Shown: one piece after another, positions 21,595 to 62,736 of the stretch | Layout: each line of letters begins with the position of its first letter | How positions within the stretch are numbered: the first letter of the stretch is position 1 | Assembly (NCBI GenBank): GCA_022822525.1 | Contig: JAJEBN010000113.1 | Span: 1 to 64,000 of the forward strand | DNA length: 64,000 nucleotides | Source: Acidimicrobiia bacterium | GTDB taxonomy: Bacteria; Actinomycetota; Acidimicrobiia; Acidimicrobiales; Poriferisodalaceae | Direction of reading: 5' to 3' | Program-made: the position numbers and the translations under genes | The notes under the pieces: generated by a model | Told to the model about the DNA's origin: nothing | The model's database searches: none | What the model saw: the letters and a program-made list of their open reading frames with translations, nothing else

Positions 21595-21786
21595 AGAGGC
21601 GAAGCCGTGACGGAAGCGGCCTGCGAGCGGCAGCGAACATGAGCGGGCAGCACGGGTGAAGCCGTGGGCCAAGTGGCACCGGGCATCCCGCAGGGTGAGG
21701 CGCCTACAGTCTTGGAAAGCTGGCGCGCTCAGTCGGCGCTCAGCGGTGGGCCTGATGCAGGCCCGGAGGCAGGTACGGGAGGCACG

Positions 21787-22737
21787 ATGGCGTTGACAGA
21801 ACGGCCCCAGCGGACGACCAACGGGCGCAAGCCGGACGGTCGGCGCGCACACCGGTCGTACCTGAGCTACATCGACAAGTCGCGCGAGTACTACGGGGCA
21901 CACGGCTACCCGCAGCCGTACCAGTGGGCGTACAACCAAGAGGTGGCGTTCGCGCCGTTGGCCACGCCGCTCTCGGAGAGCACCGTCGGCCTCGTCACCA
22001 CCTCGTTCTTCGAGAAGGGCCGCGAGCCTGCCGGAGTGCCGGTGGCCCGGCCCAAGCAGCCCTACGCCGCTCGCTGCGACGATGCCCTCGCAGGCCTCTA
22101 CAACAGCGATCTCTTCTGGGACAAGGACAACACCCACACCGACGACCTCGACACCTACCTGCCCATCAACCGGCTGCGCGAGTTCGAGGCCGAGGGGCGC
22201 ATCGGTGCACTCTCGGAGCGCTTCTACGGCATCCCCACCGACTACAGCCATCGCCGCACCCAGCGCAACGACTCGCCCCGTATCGAGGAGTGGATGCGTG
22301 AAGACGGCGTCGACGTTGCCTTCCTGGTACCGCTCTGACCGGTCTGCCACCAGACGATCGGTCTGATCGCTCGACACCTGGAAGAGGCCGGCATTCCCAC
22401 CGTGGTGGCCGGCAGCGCTCGTGACATCGTCGAGGAATGCGGCGTCGCACGGTTTGTGTTCACCGATTTCCCCCTGGGGAACCCGACCGGCAAGCCCGGC
22501 GATGCGGCCATGCAGCGCGCCATCGTGGCGACGGCGCTGGACCTGCTCGAGCATGCCTGGATGCCGCGCACCACGGTGCAGACGCCCTATGTGTGGGATG
22601 CCGACGACAACGACGGCTGGCGTGACCACTTCATGCGTGTCGACGACTCCAACCGGGCCGCGCTGGCCGCGGCCGGCGAGGCACGACGGCGCGATCAAGC
22701 CGCCGCCAAGGCCGACGGCCGCGCCCGCACCAGCTGA
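21787..22737 (+). CDS. Selenoprotein B (GrdB/PrdB-like) family protein with in-frame UGA = Sec184
   Basis: Two open segments in the same frame, 21787-22335 and 22339-22737, are separated only by TGA at 22336-22338. Read through, they give 316 residues with the redox motif U184-P-V-C-H-Q-T, the UxxCxxT arrangement of the glycine/sarcosine/betaine/D-proline reductase selenoprotein B family. Both sides are conserved-looking: DKDNTHTDDLDTYLPINRLR before, and GLIARHLEEAGIPTVVAGSA then FTDFPLGNPTGKPGD after. GGGAGG ten nt before the ATG fixes the start. It lacks the other glycine reductase subunits and sits in an aerobic-looking genome, so a thiol-redox or reductive-lyase role is more likely than Stickland metabolism. 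A candidate SECIS follows the UGA. A nonsense mutation is the alternative, but the intact downstream half argues against it. Confidence 0.85.
22339..22371 (+). promoter_or_regulatory. Candidate bacterial SECIS element for the GrdB-like selenoprotein
   Basis: Directly after the UGA, CAGAC (22351-22355) and GTCTG (22361-22365) form a five-pair stem with loop GATCG, and the weaker outer pairs extend it. The apical loop begins with G 18 nt after the UGA, within the range described for SelB-dependent bacterial SECIS elements. A competing helix (GTCTG 22342-22346 with CAGAC) could also form. No folding program was run. Confidence 0.5.
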
Positions 22738-45050: not shown

Positions 45051-47198
45051 TCAAGCTCCCTCTTCGTTGCTGAGCTGTTCCAGCCGTTCCCATTCGTCGA
45101 TGAGGCTGCTGTCGGTGCTGCGCACGAGGTCGCCGAGCCAGCGGGTCAACTCCACGATGTCGTCGGTGCGACGATCCTCGGGCACGTTGCGCACGAGGGC
45201 CTTGTACGCGTCGCTGAGGTAGCGCAGCAGCACTCCCTCGGAGCCTTTGATGCCGTAGTGGTTGACGTACTCGCGGAACGTCATGGCCCGCTCTCGCAGG
45301 TCGCGTGCAACCGACTTGGGGCGGATGTTGTCGTTGCGCAGCCAGGGGTGATGGGTCGACCATGCGTTGAAGCTGTCGTACAGCCAGTCGCGCAGCGGCT
45401 TGGGCCACTCGACTTCTTCGAGGCGCTCCATGCGTTCCTCGTAGTCGACGCCCTCGGCCTTCATCTCAGCCAGCAGGTCGGTGCGGGCCAGGTCTCGCTG
45501 CCGTTCCAGCACCACGGTCGGGTTCTCCAGCGTGGCTTCGAGCACGCTGAGCATGTCGAGCGGGAAGGTCGGCTCGTCGGCGTCGAGAAACTCGATGGCG
45601 TCGAGTGCGAACGGCGAGAGCGGCTGGGTCAGGTCGAACTCGGCTTGGAGGTCCACGTTGACCCGCACCAGGCGGTCGAGCTCATCGGGTTCGGCGAGCC
45701 GTTCGACCACCTGAGTCTCGGTCAGCGAGCGGTAGATGGCGATGGCCCGGCGGATGTGGGTGCGGTTGGCGGCGCGGGTCTCGTGGTTGTCGGTGAGCAG
45801 CCGGCGCATCGCCGCGCAGCCGTCGCCGGGGCGGTCCAGCACATTCATCAGCATCGAATGCGACACGTCGAACTGCGAGCGCAGCAGCTCGGGCTCGCCT
45901 GACGCCAGCCGTCCGAAAGTGTCGGCATTCCAGGGCGCGTAGCCCCGCTTGGGCGGCGACGGGCGGCGCACCTTGCGCAGCTTGGCCGGGTCGTCGCCGA
46001 ACTTCTCGCGGGCTTTCTCGAGCGCCATCGCGTACTCCACTTCGTGCTCGGGTGCCTGGCACCACACGAAGCCCTCGTGGTCGAAGCCCCGGCGCCCGGC
46101 CCGGCCGGCGATCTGCTGGAAGTCGCGCACCGACAGCACCCGCGTGTCGCGGCCGTCGTACTTGCAGAGCTGGGTGAACACCACCGTGCGGATCGGCACG
46201 TTGACGCCGACGCCGAGCGTGTCGGTGCCGCAGATGAGCTTGAGCAGGCCCGCCCCGGCCAGCCGCTCCACCAGCAGCCGGTACTTGGGCAGCATCCCGG
46301 CGTGGTGCACGCCGATACCGGCCTTGACGAAGCGCGAGATGTCGCGGCCGAACGGTGAGTCGAACCGGAAGTCGACGATCTCGGCAGCCACCTGCGCCTT
46401 CTCGTCCTTGGAGAGCACGTTGAGGCTGGTGAGTGCCTGCGCCCGCTCGGTGGCAGCACGCTGCGTGAAGTGGACGATGTAGGCGGGCACTCGCCGCAGC
46501 TCCAGCAGCTCTTCGAGCGACTGGTGCAGCGTCGTCTCGCGGTAGGTGAAGGTGAGCGGCACCGGCCGTTCCGCTCCGGTCACCGTGGCGACCTCGCGGC
46601 CCGAGCGCCGCTGCAGGTCCTCGGCGAAGCGCCGGGTAGGGCCGAGCGTGGCGCTCATGAGGATCATCTGGGTGCGGGTCAGCTCGAGCAGCGGCACCTG
46701 CCACGCCCAGCCCCGGTCGCGGTCGGCATAGAAGTGGAACTCGTCCATGACGACGCTGTCGACCGGCGCACCGGCACCGGAGCGCAATGCCAGGTTGGCC
46801 AGGATCTCCTGCGTGCAGCACACCACCGGCGCATCGGGGTTGACCGCGCCGTCGCCGGTCACCATGCCGACGTTGGCAGCACCCAGCTCGTCACACAGCG
46901 CGAAGAACTTCTCCGACACGAGCGCCTTGACCGGCGCGGTGTAGTAGCTGCGCTGGCCACGGGCCACCGCCTCGAAATGCGCCGCGAGGCCCACCAGCGA
47001 CTTGCCCGAGCCGGTCGGCGTGGTGATGATGACGTGGTTGCCCCCGAAGATCTCCAAGATCGCGTCCTCTTGGGCTTCGTAGAGCTCCAGGCCGATCTCG
47101 GCTGAGTAGTCCAGGAAGCCTTCGAGCAGCGAGTCGGCGTCGGGCTCGCGGGGCACGAACGCCGCCAGCCGCCCCGCCGCCAAATTCGTCGTGATCAC
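45051..47198 (-). CDS. Ski2-like DEAD/DEAH-box helicase (DUF3516 family), shortened C-terminus
   Basis: This 715-residue SF2 helicase has motif I TTPTGSGKS, Ia YYTAPVKALVSEK, II MDEFHFY, III ILMSATLG, IV VHFTQRAAT, V GTDTLGVGVNVPIRTVVF and VI QIAGRAGRRG. These match the Mtr4/Ski2-like helicases common in actinobacteria, which unwind structured RNA. As I recall the family, it ends with a DUF3516 region of over 100 further residues; this one stops after a charged helix (EWERLEQLSNEEGA). The GTG start overlaps the restriction gene stop (GTGA), indicating translational coupling. It could be a housekeeping helicase captured downstream of the restriction genes or a working part of the defence locus. 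Confidence 0.85.
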   Translation of the reverse strand: MITTNLAAGRLAAFVPREPDADSLLEGFLDYSAEIGLELYEAQEDAILEIFGGNHVIITTPTGSGKSLVGLAAHFEAVARGQRSYYTAPVKALVSEKFFALCDELGAANVGMVTGDGAVNPDAPVVCCTQEILANLALRSGAGAPVDSVVMDEFHFYADRDRGWAWQVPLLELTRTQMILMSATLGPTRRFAEDLQRRSGREVATVTGAERPVPLTFTYRETTLHQSLEELLELRRVPAYIVHFTQRAATERAQALTSLNVLSKDEKAQVAAEIVDFRFDSPFGRDISRFVKAGIGVHHAGMLPKYRLLVERLAGAGLLKLICGTDTLGVGVNVPIRTVVFTQLCKYDGRDTRVLSVRDFQQIAGRAGRRGFDHEGFVWCQAPEHEVEYAMALEKAREKFGDDPAKLRKVRRPSPPKRGYAPWNADTFGRLASGEPELLRSQFDVSHSMLMNVLDRPGDGCAAMRRLLTDNHETRAANRTHIRRAIAIYRSLTETQVVERLAEPDELDRLVRVNVDLQAEFDLTQPLSPFALDAIEFLDADEPTFPLDMLSVLEATLENPTVVLERQRDLARTDLLAEMKAEGVDYEERMERLEEVEWPKPLRDWLYDSFNAWSTHHPWLRNDNIRPKSVARDLRERAMTFREYVNHYGIKGSEGVLLRYLSDAYKALVRNVPEDRRTDDIVELTRWLGDLVRSTDSSLIDEWERLEQLSNEEGA

Positions 47199-48388
47199 TG
47201 GGTCGGAGTCCGAGTTGCGAGGAGGTCGTCAAGCGAGTCGGCCCATGTGTCGTCGATGCGTTGGATCGCTGCGATGCGTTTGCGATCTTTGCTCCACGGC
47301 GTGAGTTGACGAGTCCACTTGAACTTGAAATGCCAACGGCCGGTCACTGAGAACATGCACGCCGCGACCATGTCGAATGCGTCGAAGCGGTACTTCCGCC
47401 CAGCGCCTGAGTCGCGGGTCTTCTGCACCTCGACCTTGGCATCACCGTCCTTGTACGTCTCGCGCAGGGCGTTCTTGCATTCGATCGTGAGGTCGCGACC
47501 GTCCTGCAGCACGACGCGAAAGTCTGGTTCTCCATCCAGATCGATGGGCTCTACCTCGTCGACTGACGCCTCTGCCCGCAGCAGTCGACCCAAGTGGTGT
47601 TCAGCCACTCCGCCTCGAACTGCGACGCCAAGCCTGAAGTTGGATTCGATGATGCCGAGGATCGTGCCCGCTTCGAGACCGAAGAGTTCTTCCAACTCGT
47701 GGCGCTCGGGCCGGCCCGAGGTGAAGCTGTCGGCTAGATCGAGGCGCAGGGCTGTCTCAAGTCCAAGGCTGGTGGCGAGCGCTTCGAAGCGCGCATAGTC
47801 GAGCAACCGCTTGGGCCGGAAGCCGACCATGGCCTCGAGGCCTTCCCAGCTCTGGCCCTGGGGTGTGCGGGGCCGCGCTTTCTCTCGGGCCCACACGGCC
47901 CAACTCGCTTCTCTCACAGCAGCGGCATTCGACTGTCGGTAGTAGCCAGAAATGCCCATCGGCAGTTCCGCGTAGACGAGAGGGTCGAGTCCGACGATGA
48001 TCCCGTTCTCCGGGTCAACGGCCAGCACCAGCGTCACATCGACGCCTGCCGGATCGTGACTCAGCGGGTTCGACTCGGTGCGTGTCCGGGTCGGATCCCC
48101 AAACCGGATCTGGAAGCGGTGTTCCGTTGAAGGGCGATTGCGTGTCGGCCGTCTGGTGGTGGTGAAGGGGTAGGTGAGCAGTCCGTAGCGGTGGCCCTCG
48201 CCGTCCTCCGCGCTTAGGAAAATCGGCGCCACCTGATGATCCGGATACGAGCACGACACCACCCGGCCGCCGCTGGCTTCGACGCCATGTCGGAGGAGGT
48301 CGACAACAGGCTGGCGCGACCGGGAAATCCGGTACACCTTCGAGACATACGAACGCCCGGCGACTTCGGGGATTTCTTCAGTGGTCAC
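47195..48388 (-). CDS. Putative restriction endonuclease, PD-(D/E)XK type
   Basis: This 397-residue protein has a PD-(D/E)XK core in the C-terminal third: E-P-D about residue 289, then VVLQDGRDLTIECKN with E303-C-K305. The N-terminal 250 residues have no recognised domain and could hold target recognition. It lies 13 nt downstream of a cytosine-5 methyltransferase gene on the same strand, so a type II restriction-modification pair is the natural reading. It starts with GTG. Its stop overlaps the helicase start by four nt. Codon use is less GC-extreme than its neighbours, in keeping with acquired DNA. Confidence 0.72.
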   Translation of the reverse strand: MTTEEIPEVAGRSYVSKVYRISRSRQPVVDLLRHGVEASGGRVVSCSYPDHQVAPIFLSAEDGEGHRYGLLTYPFTTTRRPTRNRPSTEHRFQIRFGDPTRTRTESNPLSHDPAGVDVTLVLAVDPENGIIVGLDPLVYAELPMGISGYYRQSNAAAVREASWAVWAREKARPRTPQGQSWEGLEAMVGFRPKRLLDYARFEALATSLGLETALRLDLADSFTSGRPERHELEELFGLEAGTILGIIESNFRLGVAVRGGVAEHHLGRLLRAEASVDEVEPIDLDGEPDFRVVLQDGRDLTIECKNALRETYKDGDAKVEVQKTRDSGAGRKYRFDAFDMVAACMFSVTGRWHFKFKWTRQLTPWSKDRKRIAAIQRIDDTWADSLDDLLATRTPTQ

Positions 48389-48401
48389 GGCGCCGACGGC
48401 G

Positions 48402-49553
48402 CTACGCGCCAGCTACAGCACGCGCGACGCACTCTGCGAGCCGCGGCGGCACCGAGTTGCCGAGCTGTGACTGCACAGACGCCCGTGTGCCGACGAGCGC
48501 GTAGTCGTCAGGAAAGGTGAACAGCCGTCGAAGCTCCGGTACGCGGAGCCTGCGGTTGTCCCAATGGAACGGGCCGACGTTTGGACCGGGCCTCGCCTGA
48601 ATCGTTGGTGACGGCCGGTCGGGATCGAGCTTCAACAGGAACGACCAGTAGCGGGACCGCCACTCGAACACCGGCTCAGGGTGACCTCGCTTGGCGGTGA
48701 AATGCAAATAGTTGTCGCCTGGTGGAATGTCCTCAACAAGGTGGCTCCACTTCCCACGCAGGGCTTCTTCGGGCTCTGGCTCGGTGATCAGCCCGGCCAG
48801 TGCAGCTCCTGACGTTACGTGCGGATGCGGCCCGCCCGATGTCCGGCGCCGCTCCCATTGGCCATGATGCGTGGGGGTCGGGAACCCAGGGAGGCGCTCG
48901 CCTCTGCGGCACCCGATGACGAAGAGTCGAGGCCGAGCTTGGGGGACGCCAAAGTCCGCGGCGTTCAGTACACGCCAGTGGCTGCGATAGCCGGCGCACT
49001 CAATCTCGTTCAGGAGCCGGTTGAACGCTGGTCGACTGGCTCGATTGTTGAACGTCAGCGCATAGACGTTCTCGAAGATGAAGTATCTGGGGCGAGCCTC
49101 TGCGAGAACTCTCGTGAACGCCTGGAGCAGGCTTGCCGCGGGATCCGCACCGTTGCGCTTCCAATCGAGCCAGAAACCCGATTTCGAGAACGCGACACAA
49201 GGCGGCCCGCCAACGAGTAGATCCGGCCGTTCGCGCCCGTGCAGCCCTCCAGCGCGCAGGATGTCGCATGTCGTGATGCCCTCGGTGGTGCCCTGAGCCA
49301 GCGGCGAGAGGTCGGCACGCACTACCTCGCGCAAACCAGGGAAGCGGGCGGGGGCGTTCTTCTCCATGGTGTTGCAGGCATCGTCATCCCACTCGACCGC
49401 CGAGATGACGGAGAACCCTGCTCCCTCGATGCCCAAGTCGAGGCCGCCTGCACCCGAGAAGAGGGAGATCGCGTTGCCTACGCCCACCCCGTCAGTCTGA
49501 CCGCCGAGGTGCCCCTGAACGCGGATCATGTCGTCGAATTGACCCTGTCGCAT
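48402..49553 (-). CDS. dcm: DNA cytosine-5 methyltransferase
   Basis: This 383-residue C5-MTase has all key motifs in order: I ISLFSGAGGLDLGIEGAGF (AdoMet), IV GGPPCVAFSKSGF with the catalytic Cys, VI FENVYAL, VIII RPRLFVIG, IX RPSPTIQARPGP and X LGNSVPPRL. The target recognition domain lies between VIII and IX. It modifies cytosine in a recognition site that cannot be read from sequence. The ATG at 49553 leaves a 34-residue extension before motif I, with no HTH. A perfect 17-bp palindrome lies ten nt upstream of the start. The restriction gene follows after 13 nt. Confidence 0.93.
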   Translation of the reverse strand: MRQGQFDDMIRVQGHLGGQTDGVGVGNAISLFSGAGGLDLGIEGAGFSVISAVEWDDDACNTMEKNAPARFPGLREVVRADLSPLAQGTTEGITTCDILRAGGLHGRERPDLLVGGPPCVAFSKSGFWLDWKRNGADPAASLLQAFTRVLAEARPRYFIFENVYALTFNNRASRPAFNRLLNEIECAGYRSHWRVLNAADFGVPQARPRLFVIGCRRGERLPGFPTPTHHGQWERRRTSGGPHPHVTSGAALAGLITEPEPEEALRGKWSHLVEDIPPGDNYLHFTAKRGHPEPVFEWRSRYWSFLLKLDPDRPSPTIQARPGPNVGPFHWDNRRLRVPELRRLFTFPDDYALVGTRASVQSQLGNSVPPRLAECVARAVAGA

Positions 49554-54205: not shown

Positions 54206-54700
54206 TCAGGCGCCGGTGTCGGACTCCGCTGGTCGGCGCCACATGAGGGCGTTGCGGCGCATGATGGCGACCATCGTGTCGTCCTGGTTGTGGGCGCGGT
54301 GCTCGAACAGGATGATGCCCTGATCGGGCTTGCTCTTCGAGGGGCGTGCCGAGATCACCTCGCTCTCGACTCGCAGCGTGTCGCCGTGGAAGACGGGCGC
54401 AGGGAAGTCCATCCGTTCGAAGCCGAGGTTCGCCACGGTGGTGCCGTGGGTGGTCTCGTGGACCGAGATGCCGACCACGACAGCGGCCGTGAACATCGAG
54501 TTGACGAGCGGCTTGCCGAACTGGGTCTCGGTGCGGGCGTACTCGAAGTCGAGATGCAGGGCCGCGGGGTTCATCGTCATGGTGGTGAACATGACGTTGT
54601 CGGCCTCGGTGATCGTGCGGCGCAGCCGGTGGTGGATCACCAGACCCGGCGTCAGCTCCTCGAACCACCGTCCGCCGTGCGGTCGGGGTGCATCGCTCAT
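54206..54700 (-). CDS. MaoC-like dehydratase (hotdog fold)
   Basis: This 164-residue hotdog-fold protein has the MaoC hydratase pattern: [20 protein letters not shown] (catalytic Asp, with the His position replaced in this subgroup), [19 protein letters not shown], and [21 protein letters not shown]. It hydrates or dehydrates an enoyl-CoA, similar to mesaconyl-CoA hydratase-type proteins. AGGAGG lies about 11 nt before the ATG, which overlaps the upstream stop (TGATG-type), so it is translationally coupled to the 374-residue protein gene. Confidence 0.82.
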
Positions 54701-55824
54701 CAGGCAGCTCCTCCTGCTACTTCGGCTGTGTCTGATTGGCCGATGCCGAGAGCCTCGGCCCAAGGCACCTCGCACGCTTGGTCGAGATCGATCTTGGCGT
54801 GAACGACCGAGTTCCGGTGGGGGCCGGCGCACCACGACGGCATCACCATCGTGTAGAGACCCGAGCCGCCCGCCTGGAACACCAAGATCCTGCTGGGGTC
54901 CTTCAGGATCGGGACCAGCTCATCGGGCGGGCCGTCCCGGTCGAGATAGAAGGCCGACCCGACATGGGCGAGCGTGGCTGCCGTGTTGGTGGCACGCGCA
55001 GCCAGCTCGGCCTGGATGTCCTCGCGGGTCAGCCCCGCACGAGCCAGCACCGTCGTGTGATCGGGGTTCATGATCACGGTGACAGCACCGTGCCGCAGGT
55101 GCGCGTTGTTGCTGCCCGGATTGGCCATGACCGCAGCGATCACGTTCAGCAGGCGGCTGGCCGACTCGGGGTCATCCGCATCGCCGGTGAAGATCGTCGA
55201 GTGCGGCGCCTCGGCGCCGACGACGACCACAGCACTGTCTTCTTCGCCGTAGCCGTAGCTGGTGTGCAGCGGCGCGAGCGGGCTGTTCTCGGTGTCCTCG
55301 GCGATGCAGTAGGTGAACTTGCCGGGATGGCCGTGAAGCGCCATGTCCGACACCCCGGGGCGGGCACCGCCGATGTTCATCATCGCCAGCCGCAACGCCC
55401 GTCCGATGGTGGCATTGGCCCGATGGCCGGGCCCGAGCGCCCCGAATCCCGACGCCACTTCGCCGCACTGGTGCCGTGCCGGCCCGCACACCACGATGAG
55501 CGGCGCGGTGCAATGGGTGGTGCTCTGCATCTCGGTGAGGTCGAACTCGGGCTGGCACACCGCCCGCACGGCGGCCACGACGACGGGAATGTGGTCGGGC
55601 AGGCAGCCGGCCATCACTGCGGCCGTCGCGACCTTCTCCACGCTCGCCACGCCGTGCGCGGGTCCCATGACGCCGAGTTCGAGATCAGGGTCGAGTCCGG
55701 TGGCGAGCGCCATCATGGCCACCCGCTCCGGCGTGGGGATGACGACCGGCAGGCCGTCGGTGAGCCCGAGCGCGTGGAGCTGCTCGAGAGCGTCGGCCTC
55801 GCTGCGGGCCTCCAGCAGTGTCAC
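54700..55824 (-). CDS. Conserved 374-residue protein of unknown function, neighbour of the UGSC selenoprotein
   Basis: The family could not be named. The sequence looks enzyme-like and soluble. It begins with [17 protein letters not shown] and has a Gly/Ala-rich core with conserved-looking Cys residues ([21 protein letters not shown]), then [22 protein letters not shown], then a Gly-rich end ([17 protein letters not shown]). Its paired cysteines and position 22 nt downstream of the UGSC gene suggest that it works with the selenoprotein, perhaps as its substrate or catalytic partner. This is inference from position. GTG start, with GAAAAGG upstream; the stop overlaps the MaoC ATG. Confidence 0.7.
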
Positions 55825-55846: not shown

Positions 55847-56386
55847 TCAGTTGGAGGCGGCGCCGGTCAGGATCGAGATGATCTGCGGCGCGATGTCGGC
55901 GGCCACCTTGGCCATGTTGTCCTCGCCGCTGCCGGCGACAGGGTGCGGCAGGCGGATGCGGGGGACCGTCGGCATGCCAGTGGCGTTGGCCACGAAGTCG
56001 CCCTGGGGCCAGAACGCATCGGTGACGAGTGCGATGGACGGGATGCCCGCTCGGGCGGTGGTGATGCTGTCACGCACGGTGCCAGATGTGCAGCTGCCTC
56101 AATGGCCGTACGCGGCGATCACCGCGCCGCATTCGGAGCTGATGTCGTCGAGCATGCCCTTGCCGACAACCGACGACGCGTCGCCCTTGTCGTAGCGGTT
56201 GAACGACGCAGACGGCAGCCGTTCGGCCAGCGCCTTCTCGACATGGTCGAGGAAGCGGACGCTGTCGGGGAAGCCATTGGCGACCAGGCCGATCGTGATC
56301 GGCTGATCGAGCGGTGTGCTGAGCGTGTACGGCTCAGGCGCAGTCTTGGCCTCGCCACGCGGATCGTGGAAGGTGAGGGTGCTCAT
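55847..56386 (-). CDS. UGSC-family selenoprotein with in-frame UGA = Sec96
   Basis: Two open segments in one frame (56386-56102 and 56098-55847) are split by TGA at 56101-56099. Read through, the 179-residue product contains A-Y-G-H-U96-G-S-C-T-S-G-T-V, the exact U-G-S-C motif that names this (seleno)protein family. The flanks are continuous: GLVANGFPDSVRFLDHVEKAL before, and GIPSIALVTDAFWPQGDF plus TVPRIRLPHP after. The fold looks like a small alpha/beta Rossmann-type domain. Biochemistry is undescribed as far as I know; a redox or thiol-transfer role is inferred. The ATG at 56386 is preferred over a GTG two codons earlier. It lies between the nitrile hydratase genes and the 374-residue protein. 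Confidence 0.87.
56066..56097 (-). promoter_or_regulatory. Candidate bacterial SECIS element for the UGSC selenoprotein
   Basis: On the minus strand the bases after the UGA fold into a long imperfect stem. GCAC pairs with GTGC around the ten-base loop ATCTGGCACC, and outer pairs (GC-G-C with G-C-AGC) extend it with small bulges to 56066. The loop holds GG at 16-17 nt after the UGA. This was judged by eye only. Confidence 0.45.
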
Positions 56387-56446: not shown

Positions 56447-56788
56447 TCAGTGGTCGTGGCCGGCGGGGCGCGCGGCGTACGCGGCGGCCCGATCAGCAAC
56501 AGCGTCGCCGTTGATGAGGTCGCGCTCGGCCACGGCGCGCTCGAGCGCCGCGAGCCAGCATCGGTAGTAGTCCCAAGGCTCAATCGCACCGCCGCTGCCG
56601 GACGCCGTCTCCCAGCCAGCAATGGCCTCGATGAGGTGCTCGCGGAACTCGTCCCACGTGAAGTGGCCCCCGTCGACGAGGTCGGCCGCGAGACCGAACG
56701 CCCGCGCTTGCCACGGCTCGGAGAAGACCAGCTCGCCGTTGTCCCGTGGCGGGGCGGCGCCGGAGCCCTCGAGCAGGTCAATGCTCAC
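56447..56788 (-). CDS. Nitrile hydratase accessory protein
   Basis: This 113-residue protein resembles the accessory/activator proteins (P14K, NhlE-type) and the N-terminal part of nitrile hydratase beta: FSEPWQARAFGLAADLVDGGHFTWDEF, then EPWDYYRCWLAALERAVAER. Such proteins load cobalt into the alpha subunit by a self-subunit swapping process. It starts with GTG ten nt after the alpha subunit stop, the usual beta-alpha-accessory order of Co-type operons. It ends with a short His-containing tail. Confidence 0.82.
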   Translation of the reverse strand: MSIDLLEGSGAAPPRDNGELVFSEPWQARAFGLAADLVDGGHFTWDEFREHLIEAIAGWETASGSGGAIEPWDYYRCWLAALERAVAERDLINGDAVADRAAAYAARPAGHDH

Positions 56789-56798
56789 TGGCGGAGCC

Positions 56799-57449
56799 TC
56801 ACTGGCCGCCGGGATCGGTCACACGTGCCACGCCGATCATCGAATCCCTGGTCACCAGTTCGGCCAAGCGTTCGGTGGGCCAGCCCTCGGTGCCCGCAGG
56901 CCGCTCAGGCAGCACCAGAAACCTGGTCTCTGAACTGGAATCCCAGACACGCACCTCGGTCTCGGCATCGAGTTCCAAGCCCATCTCGGCGAGCACCCTG
57001 CGGGGCTCGCGCACCACGCGGGCCCGGTACTCGGGGCTCTTGTACCAGTTCGGCGGCAGCCCCAGCAGCGCCCACGGATAGCACGAGCACAGCGTGCAGA
57101 CGACCACGTTGTGGACGCCAGGCTCATTGGCCTTCACTTCGATGTGCTCGATCTCCGCACCCCGGATGTCCATGTCGGCGACTACGGCATCTGCGTCGGT
57201 CAGCAGCCGCCGTCGCAGGCCAGCATCGGCCCACGCCTCGGCCACGAGCCGGGCTCCGATCATCGGGCCGATGTCGTGCTCGAACCGCTGGGTCGTCGCG
57301 TCGATCCGCTCGCGATCGGCCAGACCCCGCTCCACCAGCAGGTCCTCCAGCGCCTCCACACGGACTTCCGGCGACGACGCGTCGTGGTGGTCGTGGTGAT
57401 GGCCGTGTCCGTGCCCGTGATCGTCGTGCATCCCTTGCTCCGTGGTCAT
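56799..57449 (-). CDS. nthA: Nitrile hydratase alpha subunit, cobalt type
   Basis: This 216-residue protein has the metal-binding claw C118-T-L-C121-S-C123-Y-P-W. Thr in this motif marks Co-type enzymes, and the second and third Cys are expected to be oxidised. It has NWYKSPEYRARVVREPRRVL and SSSETRFLVLPERPAGTEGW downstream. An N-terminal His/Asp/Gly-rich tract (HGHGHGHHHDHHD, residues 11-23) may bind metal. It hydrates nitriles to amides. Thiocyanate hydrolase gamma shares the motif and is the main alternative. It follows the beta gene by 15 nt. Confidence 0.92.
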   Translation of the reverse strand: MTTEQGMHDDHGHGHGHHHDHHDASSPEVRVEALEDLLVERGLADRERIDATTQRFEHDIGPMIGARLVAEAWADAGLRRRLLTDADAVVADMDIRGAEIEHIEVKANEPGVHNVVVCTLCSCYPWALLGLPPNWYKSPEYRARVVREPRRVLAEMGLELDAETEVRVWDSSSETRFLVLPERPAGTEGWPTERLAELVTRDSMIGVARVTDPGGQ

Positions 57450-57464: not shown

Positions 57465-58220
57465 TCAGTCGCTCTCGGCCGCAGTCAAGTAGCACTCGTA
57501 CAGGTCGACGTAGACAGTCGCATTGGGCTCGGCGTCGTCGCCCCACAGCGTTCGGGCGTCGTAGCCCACGCAGTACACGTGCTGGGGCCGTTCGCCCCTG
57601 TTGTGCGCGGTGCTGTCGGGCAGCACCTCGGCCGGATGCAGCTTGGCGACCGTGCCCGGCTTGTCCATCACGTAGCCCGGCAGCCGTGTGTGACCGGGTT
57701 GCGTCGGCGTCGGGGCAACCACGCGGTCGCCGGTGCCGAACCGGGGCGGCTCAGCGAGATCCCGCCGCACCGTCCGGCGTTGGGGCACCGGCACCGGGCG
57801 ATCAGGGGGCAGCATCGAAGGGACGCGGTCGGCGACCGGGGCAACCCGCAGCTCGGGTGACATGCGCCTGACCTCGCTGGGAATCGGACCAGTGCGCGCC
57901 TCCAGTCGTGCGCTGTAGTCGACGGGGCCAAAGACCTCGTATTCCGCAAGCAGCACTTCGAAGCCCGCCAGCCAGCGCCCGAAGTAGCCGTTGTCGAAGT
58001 AGTCGTCGGGGTGCAGGCGCTCCAGCGCGTAGCGGAATTCGCCTGGCCGCCGGGTCGTCGCCGAGGTGACCGGGCCGAGCAGGCCGAAGACCCGCCGTTC
58101 CCAGTCGGCGTGGAATGGCGGCTCGTCCGCTTCGTAGGGAATTCGGCCCCAGCCGCTCGCGCCGCCGAGATCGTGGACGCCGCGCGTCGCGGGCGTGGGC
58201 TCCTCAGCATCAGGCGGCAT
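57465..58220 (-). CDS. nthB: Nitrile hydratase beta subunit
   Basis: This 251-residue protein begins with the beta signature GVHDLGGASGWGRIPYEADEPPFHADWERRVFGL-type segment (residues about 12-45). It then has the helical YFDNGYFGRWLAGFEVLL and a C-terminal SH3-like barrel (FGTGDRVVA, HTRLPGYVMDKPGTVAKLH, YCVGYDARTLWGDDA). It forms the heterodimeric active site with alpha. It is the first gene of the run. No strong ribosome binding site precedes the ATG at 58220, and a far longer upstream open frame is antisense to the HAD gene and rejected. No amidase gene is adjacent. Confidence 0.92.
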   Translation of the reverse strand: MPPDAEEPTPATRGVHDLGGASGWGRIPYEADEPPFHADWERRVFGLLGPVTSATTRRPGEFRYALERLHPDDYFDNGYFGRWLAGFEVLLAEYEVFGPVDYSARLEARTGPIPSEVRRMSPELRVAPVADRVPSMLPPDRPVPVPQRRTVRRDLAEPPRFGTGDRVVAPTPTQPGHTRLPGYVMDKPGTVAKLHPAEVLPDSTAHNRGERPQHVYCVGYDARTLWGDDAEPNATVYVDLYECYLTAAESD

Positions 58221-58334
58221 CGCCGAACAGCATTGCACTTCGAGGCTGAGCCCGGGCCTCAGCGGCCCGTGAGCGAAGCGAACAAGAGCGGAAGGCAACA
58301 GGTGACGCAACGGGGCCGATCGGGCGCCGGTTGT

Positions 58335-58340
58335 TAGGTT
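58335..58340 (+). promoter_or_regulatory. Putative -10 box (TAGGTT) of the HAD nucleotidase gene
   Basis: TAGGTT ends six nt before the GTG at 58347, again without a Shine-Dalgarno. Confidence 0.5.
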
Positions 58341-58346
58341 GCTGCG

Positions 58347-58997
58347 GTGCCTGCGTTTGTGCTTGCAGTGGACCTCGACGGCGTGTGCGGGATGCACACC
58401 GAAGCCTTCCGTCGCGTGGTGGCGGCCGAGCGCGGCGTTCCGGAGGACTCGTTGCCGCTGGTGCGTGGCTGGAACTTCACCGAGTGGGGCCTCGCCGACG
58501 GCGAGTTCGAAGAGCTCCATCGCATCGCCGTCGTCGACTACCGCATGTTCCGTGAGATGGAGCCGATGGCGGGGTGCTCTGAGGCGCTGTGGCGGCTGTC
58601 GGACGCGGGTGTGTGGATACGGATCGTCACCCACCGCCTGTACGTGAGCTGGGGCCACCGTGTCACCGTGAGCGACACGGTCGAGTGGCTCGACCGCGAG
58701 CGCATCCCCTATCGCGACATCTGCTTCGTGGCCGACAAAGCGATGGTGAACGCTGACGCCTATATCGAAGACGCGCCGCACAACGTGATCGACATCCGTG
58801 CCGCGGGCGGGTACGCGATCACCTTCGACCAGCCCTACAACGCGCAGGTGGAAGGACCACGTGCCCACGACTGGGCCGAAGCCGAGGAAATGGTGGTGGA
58901 GCTGCTGGCCAAGCACAGCGGCTACGTCTCGCGCCCGCTGCCCGGCATGGACGCCGGCTCCGATCGCCTCGATCTGCGAACCCGGGATACCGCGTAA
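58347..58997 (+). CDS. HAD-family 5'(3')-deoxyribonucleotidase-like protein
   Basis: This 216-residue HAD-fold protein has motif I D9-L-D11-G-V, motif II Thr in IVTHRL, a Lys in CFVADKAMVNA, and motif IV Asp in AYIEDAPHNV. The pattern and size match the NT5C group of deoxyribonucleotidases, which dephosphorylate deoxynucleotides. The GTG at 58347 is supported by a -10 box six nt upstream. The Nudix gene follows after nine nt, so the pair may act together in nucleotide sanitation. Confidence 0.82.
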   Translation: MPAFVLAVDLDGVCGMHTEAFRRVVAAERGVPEDSLPLVRGWNFTEWGLADGEFEELHRIAVVDYRMFREMEPMAGCSEALWRLSDAGVWIRIVTHRLYVSWGHRVTVSDTVEWLDRERIPYRDICFVADKAMVNADAYIEDAPHNVIDIRAAGGYAITFDQPYNAQVEGPRAHDWAEAEEMVVELLAKHSGYVSRPLPGMDAGSDRLDLRTRDTA

Positions 58998-59006
58998 GCC
59001 GGCCCT

Positions 59007-59822
59007 ATGAACGATTCCCCCACACCACCGCCCGCGCCGATCGACGCGGCAACCGTCGTCGTGCTGCGAGACGGCACGCCTGCGGCTGTGCCAGGTCACG
59101 GTTTCGACGCCGCCGAAAGCGACGCAGGAGCTCACATCGAGGTGCTCATGCTCCGGCGCAACTCACGGGGGTTCTTCGGCGGCATGTGGGTATTCCCCGG
59201 CGGTCGGGTGGACCCGCCGGACCGTGACACGCCCGGCGACGTGGTGGCCGAGTGCGATCCCGGCACCGCTGGCGCCAATGGTCTGCACGACGGCGATCGG
59301 CGCGGCTTTCGCACAGCGGCAGTTCGGGAGGCGCACGAAGAGGCCGGCATCGACCTCTCAAGCACCGAATTGACGCACTTCGCCCACTGGCTGCCGCCGC
59401 CGATCCGGCCAAAGCGGTTCTCGACGCATTTCTTCGTCTGTGCGGCACCCGCTGATCTGGATGCGGTGCGTGTCGACGGCAGCGAGATCCTCGACCATGC
59501 CTGGGTATCGCCCGCGGCGGCGTTGGAGCGGCGAGCAGCGGGCGAAATCGAGTTCGTCACGCCTACGTTCGTGACGCTCACTTGGCTGTCAGGCTTCACA
59601 CGCACTGCCGATGTGCTGTCCTCGATCGATGGCCGCACGTGCTTCCACACCCAGATCATCCCCTCGCCGGAGTCCGATCCTGGCCACGTTGCCGTCTATG
59701 TCGGTGATGCGGCCTTTCCCGACGGCGATCTCGATGCCCCCGGCCCGCGCCGACGCTGCGTCATGGTCCGCTCCGGCTGGCGCTGGGAGGAGCACGACGG
59801 CACCACGGCCGCGGCGACCTAG
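59007..59822 (+). CDS. Nudix hydrolase, NUDT19-like
   Basis: This 271-residue protein has GMWVFPGGRVDPPD, then an insertion of about 40 residues before AAVREAHEEAGID, the REUxEE half of the Nudix box. This split box is typical of NUDT19/RP2p-type enzymes, some of which are CoA diphosphatases. Residues HWLPPPIRPKRFSTHFFV are a further family hallmark. It probably hydrolyses a CoA ester or another nucleoside diphosphate derivative. It is co-transcribed with the HAD gene. Its stop shares CTAG with the convergent phosphatase stop. Confidence 0.88.
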   Translation: MNDSPTPPPAPIDAATVVVLRDGTPAAVPGHGFDAAESDAGAHIEVLMLRRNSRGFFGGMWVFPGGRVDPPDRDTPGDVVAECDPGTAGANGLHDGDRRGFRTAAVREAHEEAGIDLSSTELTHFAHWLPPPIRPKRFSTHFFVCAAPADLDAVRVDGSEILDHAWVSPAAALERRAAGEIEFVTPTFVTLTWLSGFTRTADVLSSIDGRTCFHTQIIPSPESDPGHVAVYVGDAAFPDGDLDAPGPRRRCVMVRSGWRWEEHDGTTAAAT

Positions 59823-60345: not shown

Positions 60346-61497
60346 CTATGAGTCGGCCCTGCGGAACCTCGCGAAGCGGCGCTTGGGTTCCTCGGGCGGC
60401 TCAGGCAATGGCGGCCACGCCTCGGCGAGCTCCTGCTGGCCGGCGCGGCGTACGTCCTCGAGCTCGTCACGGCTGTAGGGCTCCGGTCGGGGGTCCAGCG
60501 CCCGGTAGCGGGCCTCGGCGCTGGCGAAGTTCTCCTCAGTGATCAATCCGTCGATCAGCGTGGCGGGTTCCCAGGATTCACGAGGACCCAGGTAGATGTA
60601 GCCGTCGGCCACGTCGCGCAACCGCAGCGAGCTCTCCACACCGTCGACCGAGCCCGTCACCTCGGTCATGGCGACGCTGCCGAGCGTGGATGCGGCCAGA
60701 TCCAGTCCGAAGCGCACCTCGGTGCCGCCCCGGCCCTCGGGCGATCGCGCCACGAGCTCCTCGACCCGCTCGGTTGCCGCAGTGTCGGCAACGGCCCCGT
60801 GGAACACCACCCGCCGGCACCCGTCGCCCATCCAGCGCCACAGGAGGTTCCCCACAGAGGCGGTCGGCATTCCGTCGGCCCATTCGACGAGCCCCGTGGT
60901 GGTGGCCGTGACGTTCATGTACACCAGCGCCCGCTGGCCCGGTCGCAGCACCTCGGCGGTGAGCACGCTCGCCGCGTGGAATGCCGACATGTCGCGGTAG
61001 TGCCCGCCGAGCCACCAGTTCCGCAGGCCCCCCTCGGCGGCAGAGCGGCCGTCGAGCAGGTCGGGGTCCTCCACGTAGGTGGGCAATCCCAGCGCGACCA
61101 TGCGGATCGGCCTGCGGTCGTCGTCACGGCGCTGCTCTGCCTGGTTGTGCTCCCAGACGGCACGCAGCACATCGGCGTACTCCTGGTAGCCGAAGCCGGC
61201 GCCGAGCAGGTCGACGAACAGGTCGGCGCAGGCCCGGCCATCCCACTCCGGAGCGTTGACCAGCGCATCGAGCTCGGCTTGGCGGCGAGAGTTGGTGTAC
61301 TCCCAGGCCACGTTGGCGATGCCCTGGTCTGCCAGCTCGCTCAGTGCCTCCGCCAGGAACCCGAGGTGCTGGCGTACCCCGATCTGGTCGCCGAGCATCA
61401 CAATCTGGTGGCGACCGCAGATGTCGCCGAGGTACTCGGCGGGAGTCTGGAGCGCGGACGTCGGCCGCTCGTCGTCGGTGGGGGCTTCGGGCGGCAC
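60346..61497 (-). CDS. ChaN/EreA-like (Tiki superfamily) protein, paralogue 1
   Basis: This 383-residue protein is homologous along most of its length to the next gene upstream (61555-62736). The shared pattern is H-Q-x-V-x-x-G near residue 30, a helix, then an A-W-E-Y-T-N strand end followed by R-R-Q-A-E-L-D-A-L-V, and GYQEYADVLRAVWE. The core (G-x-x-x-x-x-x-H followed by mE-x-x-x-x-x-Q-x-x-L-D) resembles haem-binding ChaN and erythromycin esterase. Here GDQIGVRQH lacks the canonical G-E-x-H Glu. Function is uncertain. GTG start. Confidence 0.6.
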   Translation of the reverse strand: MPPEAPTDDERPTSALQTPAEYLGDICGRHQIVMLGDQIGVRQHLGFLAEALSELADQGIANVAWEYTNSRRQAELDALVNAPEWDGRACADLFVDLLGAGFGYQEYADVLRAVWEHNQAEQRRDDDRRPIRMVALGLPTYVEDPDLLDGRSAAEGGLRNWWLGGHYRDMSAFHAASVLTAEVLRPGQRALVYMNVTATTTGLVEWADGMPTASVGNLLWRWMGDGCRRVVFHGAVADTAATERVEELVARSPEGRGGTEVRFGLDLAASTLGSVAMTEVTGSVDGVESSLRLRDVADGYIYLGPRESWEPATLIDGLITEENFASAEARYRALDPRPEPYSRDELEDVRRAGQQELAEAWPPLPEPPEEPKRRFARFRRADS

Positions 61498-61554: not shown

Positions 61555-62736
61555 CTAGAGCACCTGCGTCCAAGCCAGCTCTGCGGCTGCGGCTGTCTCG
61601 GTGACGGCGGCCTCAAAATCGCCTGCGGTGGATCGGATGTCCCGCAGGCCCGGGTCGAGCGCGTAGCGCCTCGCGTGCTCCACGTGCACCGCCGGCACCG
61701 GCTCGGGAAGTGGGGTGGGCGCCCGCCGCTCGTAGTCGCGTTCGAGATAAACCCAGCCGGTGGCGAGCCCGCCGAGCGGCTCGCGGTCGAGGCTGGTGGT
61801 GCACCCCAGCCGGGCGGGCGGACCCCGGTCGACGTCGAACGCGAGCGGCACCTCGAGGTCGTCGTTCATGGCGAACACCGTGTCGAGCACGCCGTCGGCC
61901 GCCAGCGCGTAGTCGCACAGCTCGCCGTCGGCGGGCAGCGCCTCGTGGATCAGCACGGTGACCGCGCGGTCCGCGATTGCTTCGTACACACGGTTGGCAG
62001 CACCCACCACGCGACCGTCGACGACGTCGGCGTCGATGGCGTCCCACACCTGGTGCGGTCGCCGTCGCACGCGCGTAAGGGCATGGGGGGTGCGGGTCAG
62101 CACGAGCGCGCGATGACCGGGATCGACCACCTCGCTCAGCAGCACCTCGCACATGTGCTGGGAAGCCGAGCCGCGGTTTCGCAGGTGCGGCCACGCATAG
62201 GAGCAACGGAGGTCTGCTGTGTCGGTGACTGCGTCGAGGTCCAGGTCGTAGTCCAGCCCCAGCACGCGCATGGGAGCGGCGCCGGCGCCGGCGAAGCGAC
62301 GGTTCACCTCCCACACGGCACCGAGCACGTCGAGGTACTCGCGGTAGACGAAGTTGTGGCGGATGCCCCAGCGAAGGAGCGCCTCGCGCGCGAGCACCTC
62401 GTCAAAACTGGCGCCGCAGACCACTGCGTCGAGCCGTGCCTGATCGTCGACGCAGGCGTATTCCATCGCCACGATGCCGGCACCGGCGCGGTACGCCGCC
62501 GCGACGAGGTCTTGCAGAAACAGACCGGCGCGGCGGGTCGGGGTGTGGTGACCCACGAAGACCACCTGGTGGCGCTCGAACAGATCGCTGACGTAGGTGA
62601 GCGGGTCGCTGCCGTGGCTTCTCAGCCAGTCGGCCAGCTCGTCGAGCAGCACCGGCTGGATCGGCGGCAGTTCCCGGCGGTGCCGGTACAACGCAATCCG
62701 TTCGAGCAGTGCAGGATCGCCTCGACGGTTCTCCAC
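61555..62736 (-). CDS. ChaN/EreA-like (Tiki superfamily) protein, paralogue 2
   Basis: This 393-residue protein is a tandem relative of the 60346-61497 product. It has VFVGHHTPTRRAGLFLQDL, then IVAMEYACVDDQARLDAVV, FVYREYLDVLGAVWEVNRR and PMRVLGLDYDLDLDAV. The GHHTPTRR and ME-x(5)-Q-x-x-LD elements fit the ChaN/EreA metal-dependent fold; the first Glu of the usual GE-x-H is replaced. It may be a hydrolase or a ligand-binding protein. The GTG at 62736 sits eight nt downstream of a TACTGT box that overlaps the mshC promoter on the other strand. Confidence 0.6.
   Translation of the reverse strand: MENRRGDPALLERIALYRHRRELPPIQPVLLDELADWLRSHGSDPLTYVSDLFERHQVVFVGHHTPTRRAGLFLQDLVAAAYRAGAGIVAMEYACVDDQARLDAVVCGASFDEVLAREALLRWGIRHNFVYREYLDVLGAVWEVNRRFAGAGAAPMRVLGLDYDLDLDAVTDTADLRCSYAWPHLRNRGSASQHMCEVLLSEVVDPGHRALVLTRTPHALTRVRRRPHQVWDAIDADVVDGRVVGAANRVYEAIADRAVTVLIHEALPADGELCDYALAADGVLDTVFAMNDDLEVPLAFDVDRGPPARLGCTTSLDREPLGGLATGWVYLERDYERRAPTPLPEPVPAVHVEHARRYALDPGLRDIRSTAGDFEAAVTETAAAAELAWTQVL

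Follow-up and report, generated by a model that had tools for sequence, protein, structure and literature searches.

The UGSC-containing protein was described by 2008: with 255 sequences, its family ranked fifth in size among the selenoproteins of the Global Ocean Sampling survey (PMC2398784), and the pages of a 2026 review that list the family still have it as functionally uncharacterised (PMC13188914). An initial annotation of the DNA studied here had likewise called the biochemistry of the family essentially undescribed, in agreement with those pages. The passages of both papers that classify UGSC group it with Trx-like proteins (PMC2398784, PMC13188914). The chemistry of GrdB and PrdB, selenoproteins of glycine and D-proline reductase, is treated in PMC10298544 and PMC13188914. 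In it a selenium-carbon bond is formed and then cleaved by a thiolate, and the electrons for glycine reductase come from thioredoxin (PMC10298544). Here we analyze a UGSC gene of an Acidimicrobiia bacterium in its window, by which we mean the whole stretch of 64,000 nucleotides that was analyzed. The gene belongs to this already catalogued selenoprotein family and does not found a new one. As the best overall explanation, to which we give a probability of about 0.6, we propose that the protein, read with selenocysteine (Sec), is the redox subunit of a two-component, thioredoxin-fed reductase that cleaves a carbon-heteroatom bond. The features on which we draw are collected in Table 1.

Table 1. 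Features around the UGSC gene (positions in the window) and genes of the selenocysteine machinery (positions on contigs of the host genome).
Feature	Position	Strand	Basis or remark
MaoC-like hydratase, directly downstream of partner gene	54206..54699	(-)	PF01575, E 3.6e-21; kept in near-orthologues only
Partner gene, 374 aa, very probable second component of UGSC module	54700..55824	(-)	GTG start 22 nt after UGSC stop
UGSC-family selenoprotein gene, 179 aa with Sec96, then terminal TGA stop	55847..56386	(-)	Read-through translation, PF24696, NF041046, orthologues
18-codon stretch of lowest synonymous variability, candidate SECIS region	56045..56098	(-)	Synonymous differences
Candidate SECIS hairpin	56067..56085	(-)	6 pairs with a single G-A mismatch; apical loop CGTGC (5 nt), about 20 nt downstream of UGA
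UGA codon, Sec96, U of UGSC	56099..56101	(-)	TGA in window and in 9/9 near-orthologues
Nitrile hydratase accessory protein	56447..56788	(-)	TIGR03889, 79.9 bits, cut-off 46
Nitrile hydratase alpha subunit	56799..57449	(-)	TIGR01323, 272 bits, cut-off 249.85
Nitrile hydratase beta subunit, start approximate	57465..58184	(-)	TIGR03888, 168 bits, cut-off 152.2
selA	C37:28813-29958		Host genome
selB	C37:27422-28483		Host genome
tRNA-Sec (selC)	C37:42663-42754		67 bits, anticodon tca
selD	C73:37177-38130 (L119)		One in-frame TGA

The initial annotation had read the gene as two halves in one frame, split only by a TGA at 56101-56099 that falls on the U of a U-G-S-C motif. Our read-through translation yields just this: 179 codons whose sole internal TGA is codon 96, in the context AAYGH-U-GSCTSG, with Cys99 as the partner residue of the UxxC pair. 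Under genetic table 11 the frame is cut into ORFs of 97 aa (56392-56099) and 76 aa (56077-55847), and the prediction that automated annotation would make two small hypothetical genes of it is borne out elsewhere: in the Paracoccus ferrooxidans record CP038202.1 (L085:7390-7959), a UGSC selenoprotein gene near selB appears as a pair of hypothetical proteins separated at the TGA. Gene callers thus still divide such selenoprotein genes in two.

Across the TGA, residues 7-174 of the read-through protein match the Pfam UGSC profile PF24696 with 151.4 bits (E 3.5e-44; curated cut-off 25 bits), covering profile positions 3-171 of 172. The match to NF041046, 'UGSC family (seleno)protein', reaches 109.8 bits (E 1.1e-31) and stays under the equivalog cut-off of 125, which delimits the core set only and is not required for the Pfam family. 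Judged by these profile scores, the protein is a Pfam UGSC family member outside the NCBIfam core equivalog set. It resembles other members in whole length, in the position of Sec or Cys, in its high Pfam score and in the U/C-G-S-C motif, present as YGH-U-GSC; it differs from them as part of a divergent AYGH-U-GSC sub-branch, the commoner form being GD or AD-U-GSC, and is 20-59% identical to members outside its own clade. Sec/Cys96 and Cys99 are invariant in all 28 aligned UGSC members.

Several lines of evidence bear on whether the UGA is read through. The initial annotation had pointed to selA, selB, selD and tRNA-Sec as genes to look for, and all four are present in the host genome (3.55 Mb in 114 contigs, 98% complete); selD contains an in-frame TGA, which makes the selenophosphate synthetase a probable selenoprotein too. 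Four more UGSC genes are found in this genome, each with exactly one in-frame TGA, and the TGA is kept in all nine full-length near-orthologues, which come from independent Acidimicrobiia-type MAGs and are 91-98% identical. Homologues with Cys or Sec at residue 96, which the initial annotation had also proposed to align, were recovered: among the collected loci, the residue is encoded by TGA in 40 Sec-type sequences and by a Cys codon in seven (TGC in L057, L065 and L066, TGC or TGT in L020, L034, L037 and L038). Downstream of the TGA, V104, R105, D106, F125, G137, P147 and P149 are invariant in our alignment down to 32% identity, and the dN/dS of ten orthologues is 0.085 before the codon and 0.173 after it. 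These values indicate purifying selection on the downstream half, and the earlier statement that this half looks conserved holds. A TGA produced by pseudogene decay, a frameshift or a sequencing error would fit the two short ORFs that annotation would give, its sole support. We reject this origin as wholly improbable, given the same TGA in nine independent MAGs and all five own-genome paralogues, the selection acting downstream and the full Sec machinery.

The RNA just after the UGA carries a further signal. In codons 97-114 the fraction of synonymous differences is 0.044, versus 0.170 in the rest, the lowest of 162 stretches of 18 codons. This suggests that the RNA is constrained at the very place a bacterial SECIS has to occupy. 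Here the 15-nt stretch GGCACCGTGCGTGAC is invariant in 10 Sec genes of the AYGH branch, gammaproteobacterial ones included, and is identical between actinobacterial and gammaproteobacterial genes although only about half of the amino acids are common to both. In the hairpin of this branch 96.7% of cells are paired and lineages differ by a compensatory exchange of U-A for C-G, and the GD-U-GSC branch has a clear 8-bp hairpin with a two-sided change in three cells. By the criteria of the 2026 review, the loop of a bacterial SECIS lies 16-37 nt from the UGA, measures 3-9 nt and has a G at position 1 or 2 (PMC13188914); a hairpin fitting this description exists in the window gene, but it is short and has a mismatch. 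Folded alone, it is no more stable than synonymous shuffles, so the candidate SECIS is supported by comparison and not by energy, and a search of the region with the Rfam SECIS families gave no match. The synonymous constraint and the paired hairpins directly after the UGA, together with the tRNA-Sec gene and the Cys rather than Trp codons at residue 96 of homologues, also speak against a UGA decoded as another amino acid such as Trp, or used as a regulated stop that leaves a short product, which we regard as very improbable. That the window gene is a bacterial selenoprotein gene with its UGA read as selenocysteine is, in our judgment, close to certain.

The 374-aa partner encoded directly after the UGSC gene has no convincing match in Pfam, NCBIfam or the PDB. 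A homologue of it lies on the same strand beside UGSC in 54 of 55 loci (some of these overlap and contain the same gene), and the sole locus that lacks it runs off its contig. Gaps between the two genes are at most 128 nt, except for 936 nt at one own-genome paralogue, and at the own-genome paralogue C48:60305 both are fused in one 604-codon frame. Among 296 actinobacterial genomes, the partner is found in 22/22 that have UGSC above cut-off versus 2/274 others (Fisher p 3e-31). We conclude with high confidence that UGSC and its partner form a two-component module. The fused frame and the adjacent partner are probably the same arrangement as the UGSC/Unknown_1 fusion mentioned in the survey's passage on the family (PMC2398784); beyond what that passage reports, adjacency, obligatory co-occurrence and a fused thioredoxin domain are documented here. 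A sixth partner copy (L118:933-2537, contig C98) has an N-terminal thioredoxin-like domain with CPTC; it stands without an adjacent UGSC gene and is followed by a secG-like gene.

What the partner resembles was also examined by structure. Its model, moderately confident at pLDDT 77.5, finds only weak PDB matches, and the best Foldseek matches are class I fumarases (E about 2.5e-4, TM < 0.35, rmsd 13-17). Class I fumarases bind an FeS cluster by three Cys; the partner alignment has one nearly invariant Cys, C74, and with these poor superpositions we did not accept the partner as a class I fumarase. Homology to GrdE or GrdB was likewise not adopted, as profile comparisons with these two showed no similarity (E 0.18 against GrdE), and the pyruvoyl activation of GrdB/PrdB therefore cannot simply be transferred to this module. 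Fused UGSC-partner proteins with Met in place of Sec/Cys (GDMGTS; ALGDMGTSSATTI, ALADMGTSVMTTI) occur at L040:1447-3195, L084:5317-7038 and L086:7359-9041, two of them near aconitase X/DUF126 genes. This replacement implies that the UGSC fold can persist without a chalcogen, and this clade warns that not all UGSC relatives need be redox enzymes. One could accordingly picture a non-redox two-subunit lyase or hydratase, like class I fumarase or aconitase X, whose chalcogen serves as nucleophile or metal ligand with no net reduction; those relatives without Sec and Cys and the fumarase matches of the partner would suit it. For the module itself we consider this unlikely, because Sec/Cys96 and Cys99 are invariant in 28/28 aligned members, the partner has one nearly invariant Cys where class I fumarases have three, the fumarase matches remain at TM < 0.35, and the module is linked to thioredoxin.

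This link takes two forms. Partners of the AD-U-GSC branch, that of the own-genome paralogue on contig C9 among them, have at their N-terminus a domain marked by C[PEA]TC and a cis-Pro-like VPT. Pfam left the identity of this domain undecided, and a profile search of the PDB settled it by matching thioredoxins at 5.4e-7. Thioredoxin reductase genes, moreover, adjoin the module or lie near it in three lineages, Roseovarius, Variovorax and Haloterrigena. We consider it probable that the UGSC module is a thioredoxin-fed redox enzyme.

The fold of the UGSC protein was predicted with AlphaFold2 from 15 aligned sequences. The model (pLDDT 90, pTM 0.85) has five beta-alpha units and places Sec96 between strand 3 (88-91) and helix 97-112, with Cys99 one turn further on. 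Its structure matches are flavodoxin-like and related alpha/beta proteins at TM about 0.5 and Z about 9-12, values that imply a common fold and no specific relative. The fold is thus predicted to be flavodoxin-like and not thioredoxin-like as in the literature; a thioredoxin fold, whose beta-alpha-beta core carries the redox motif at its first helix, is disfavored since both the model, with Sec after the third strand, and the sequence profiles disagree with it, while the lack of thioredoxins from the list of fold matches by itself proves nothing. The same evidence weighs on the idea that UGSC is a general thiol-disulfide or peroxide-handling selenoprotein of thioredoxin-like type, with UxxC as its redox motif and the partner as client or adaptor. 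The UxxC pair, the grouping with Trx-like proteins in the relevant passages of the 2008 and 2026 papers (PMC2398784, PMC13188914) and the thioredoxin domains and thioredoxin reductase linked to the module all favor it. We nevertheless think it improbable, as the predicted fold of five beta-alpha units, in which Sec follows strand 3, finds flavodoxin-like matches, the sequence profiles match GrdB and not thioredoxin, and many modules own a fused thioredoxin domain that would make a second one redundant.

Sequence profiles instead connect UGSC to GrdB and PrdB. TIGR01917 (glycine reductase selenoprotein B) matches 14/28 UGSC proteins with a best E of 1e-6, and further NCBIfam matches of members are TIGR01918 (1.1e-6), NF040795 (2.5e-6) and NF040794 (1.1e-5); other UGSC proteins match the sarcosine, betaine and PrdB models. 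These matches are weak and belong to other members, the window protein itself giving none to TIGR01917, TIGR01918 or TIGR04483. In profile-profile comparison (hhalign), the UGSC profile reaches E 9.1e-6 against PrdB-like selenoproteins and 1.9e-4 against GrdB, with Sec aligned to Sec, and masking UxxC leaves an E of 1.3e-5. Controls with 40 shuffled profiles gave 0.074 at best, and reversed profiles were likewise no better than 0.07. When 364 ORFs were scanned, the best unrelated one reached 0.0067 and three true UGSC proteins alone scored better. Taken together, the profiles make it highly likely that UGSC is homologous to the Sec domain of GrdB/PrdB, a relation of which we found no statement in the consulted passages of papers mentioning UGSC. 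With 179 aa, UGSC lacks the full-length architecture of GrdB/PrdB and falls below their curated cut-offs, and is therefore a relative and not a member. Common to UGSC, GrdB (TIGR01917/TIGR01918) and PrdB (TIGR04483) would be this Sec domain, in which Sec, as UxxC in most, stands at the start of the same helix and is followed by an (A)GIPxV strand. Unlike GrdB, UGSC is without the N-terminal ~280 residues; its partner is not recognisably GrdE, and most of the hosts seen here are environmental MAGs, not clostridia that ferment amino acids. GrdB/PrdB are further marked by a pyruvoyl-forming partner (GrdE or PrdA) and by reductive cleavage of an alpha C-N bond. A Pfam scan of UGSC members for GRDB (PF07355) found nothing, because matches of that model end just before the Sec site, which the NCBIfam models span; in L076 and L077 the PF07355 matches end near profile position 347, and the model seems to be without the Sec domain, so that relatives sharing this domain alone would escape it.

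The window holds a second selenoprotein gene, PrdB-like, at 21664-22737 (+), with its Sec codon at 22336-22338 in the context VAFLVPL-U-PVCHQTIGLIARHLEEAGIPTV. Residues 95-311 of its product match TIGR04483 across the TGA at 2.1e-25. Another PrdB-like gene with an in-frame TGA lies on contig C63 (L076/L078).

The genes around the UGSC module differ with phylogenetic distance. The nitrile hydratase and MaoC genes and those that follow are kept with near-orthologues (>90% identity) only and were not found around orthologues of 32-58% identity, so we treat them as local context; the accessory gene, for one, is kept in most near-orthologue loci and was not found in distant ones. Since the arrangement is kept in near-orthologues alone, we rejected nitrile hydratase, whose beta-subunit match covers residues 318-552 of the ORF 57465-59135, as a functional partner of UGSC. 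Neighbors in distant relatives are CoA transferases, members of the isocitrate lyase/PEP mutase family, HMG-CoA lyase and TRAP or tripartite carboxylate transporters, which suggest small organic acids as UGSC substrates. Elsewhere in the window, a cytosine-5 DNA methyltransferase gene (TIGR00675, 153 bits) stands beside a 397-aa ORF, maybe its restriction partner, at 47195-49553 (-). Two adjoining ORFs of 383 and 393 aa (60346-61497 and 61555-62736, (-)) look by eye like tandem paralogues, and the first has no NCBIfam match.

From what was computed here, namely the kept UGA, the conserved read-through, the Sec machinery, the GrdB/PrdB homology, the partner module and the linkage to thioredoxin and thioredoxin reductase, we infer a reductive bond cleavage and the roles of both subunits. 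The host Sec machinery would translate the UGSC gene through its UGA to give a small redox-active subunit, related to the Sec-bearing C-terminal domain of GrdB/PrdB but standing alone. The adjacent partner would be the large subunit, responsible for substrate binding and activation; the neighbor genes of distant relatives hint that this substrate may be a small carboxylic acid or CoA ester. The Sec96 selenolate would attack an electrophilic carbon of the substrate and displace the leaving group, after which Cys99 would resolve the Se-C adduct to a Sec-Cys selenenylsulfide and the reduced product, and a thioredoxin-type dithiol would re-reduce the selenenylsulfide. That the bond cleaved is one between carbon and a heteroatom we put forward tentatively.

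Beyond the initial annotation, these results add that the family is a catalogued one, that the gene has an obligatory partner, that UGSC is very likely kin to GrdB/PrdB and that the window contains a second selenoprotein gene. With a place beside GrdB/PrdB, a named partner and a thioredoxin supply, what was a 'redox protein of unknown function' becomes an enzyme of two subunits that can be tested. Possibly, though we would not yet favor it, UGSC and its partner form an undescribed class of Sec/Cys reductases, kin to glycine and D-proline reductase but outside the amino-acid-fermenting clostridia, in which a new substrate-binding subunit replaces the pyruvoyl protein, thioredoxin is often built in, and a carbon-heteroatom bond in small acids is reductively cleaved. 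If true, the unusual selenium-carbon chemistry of the glycine and proline reductases would reach into environmental bacteria and, in a Cys form, haloarchaea.
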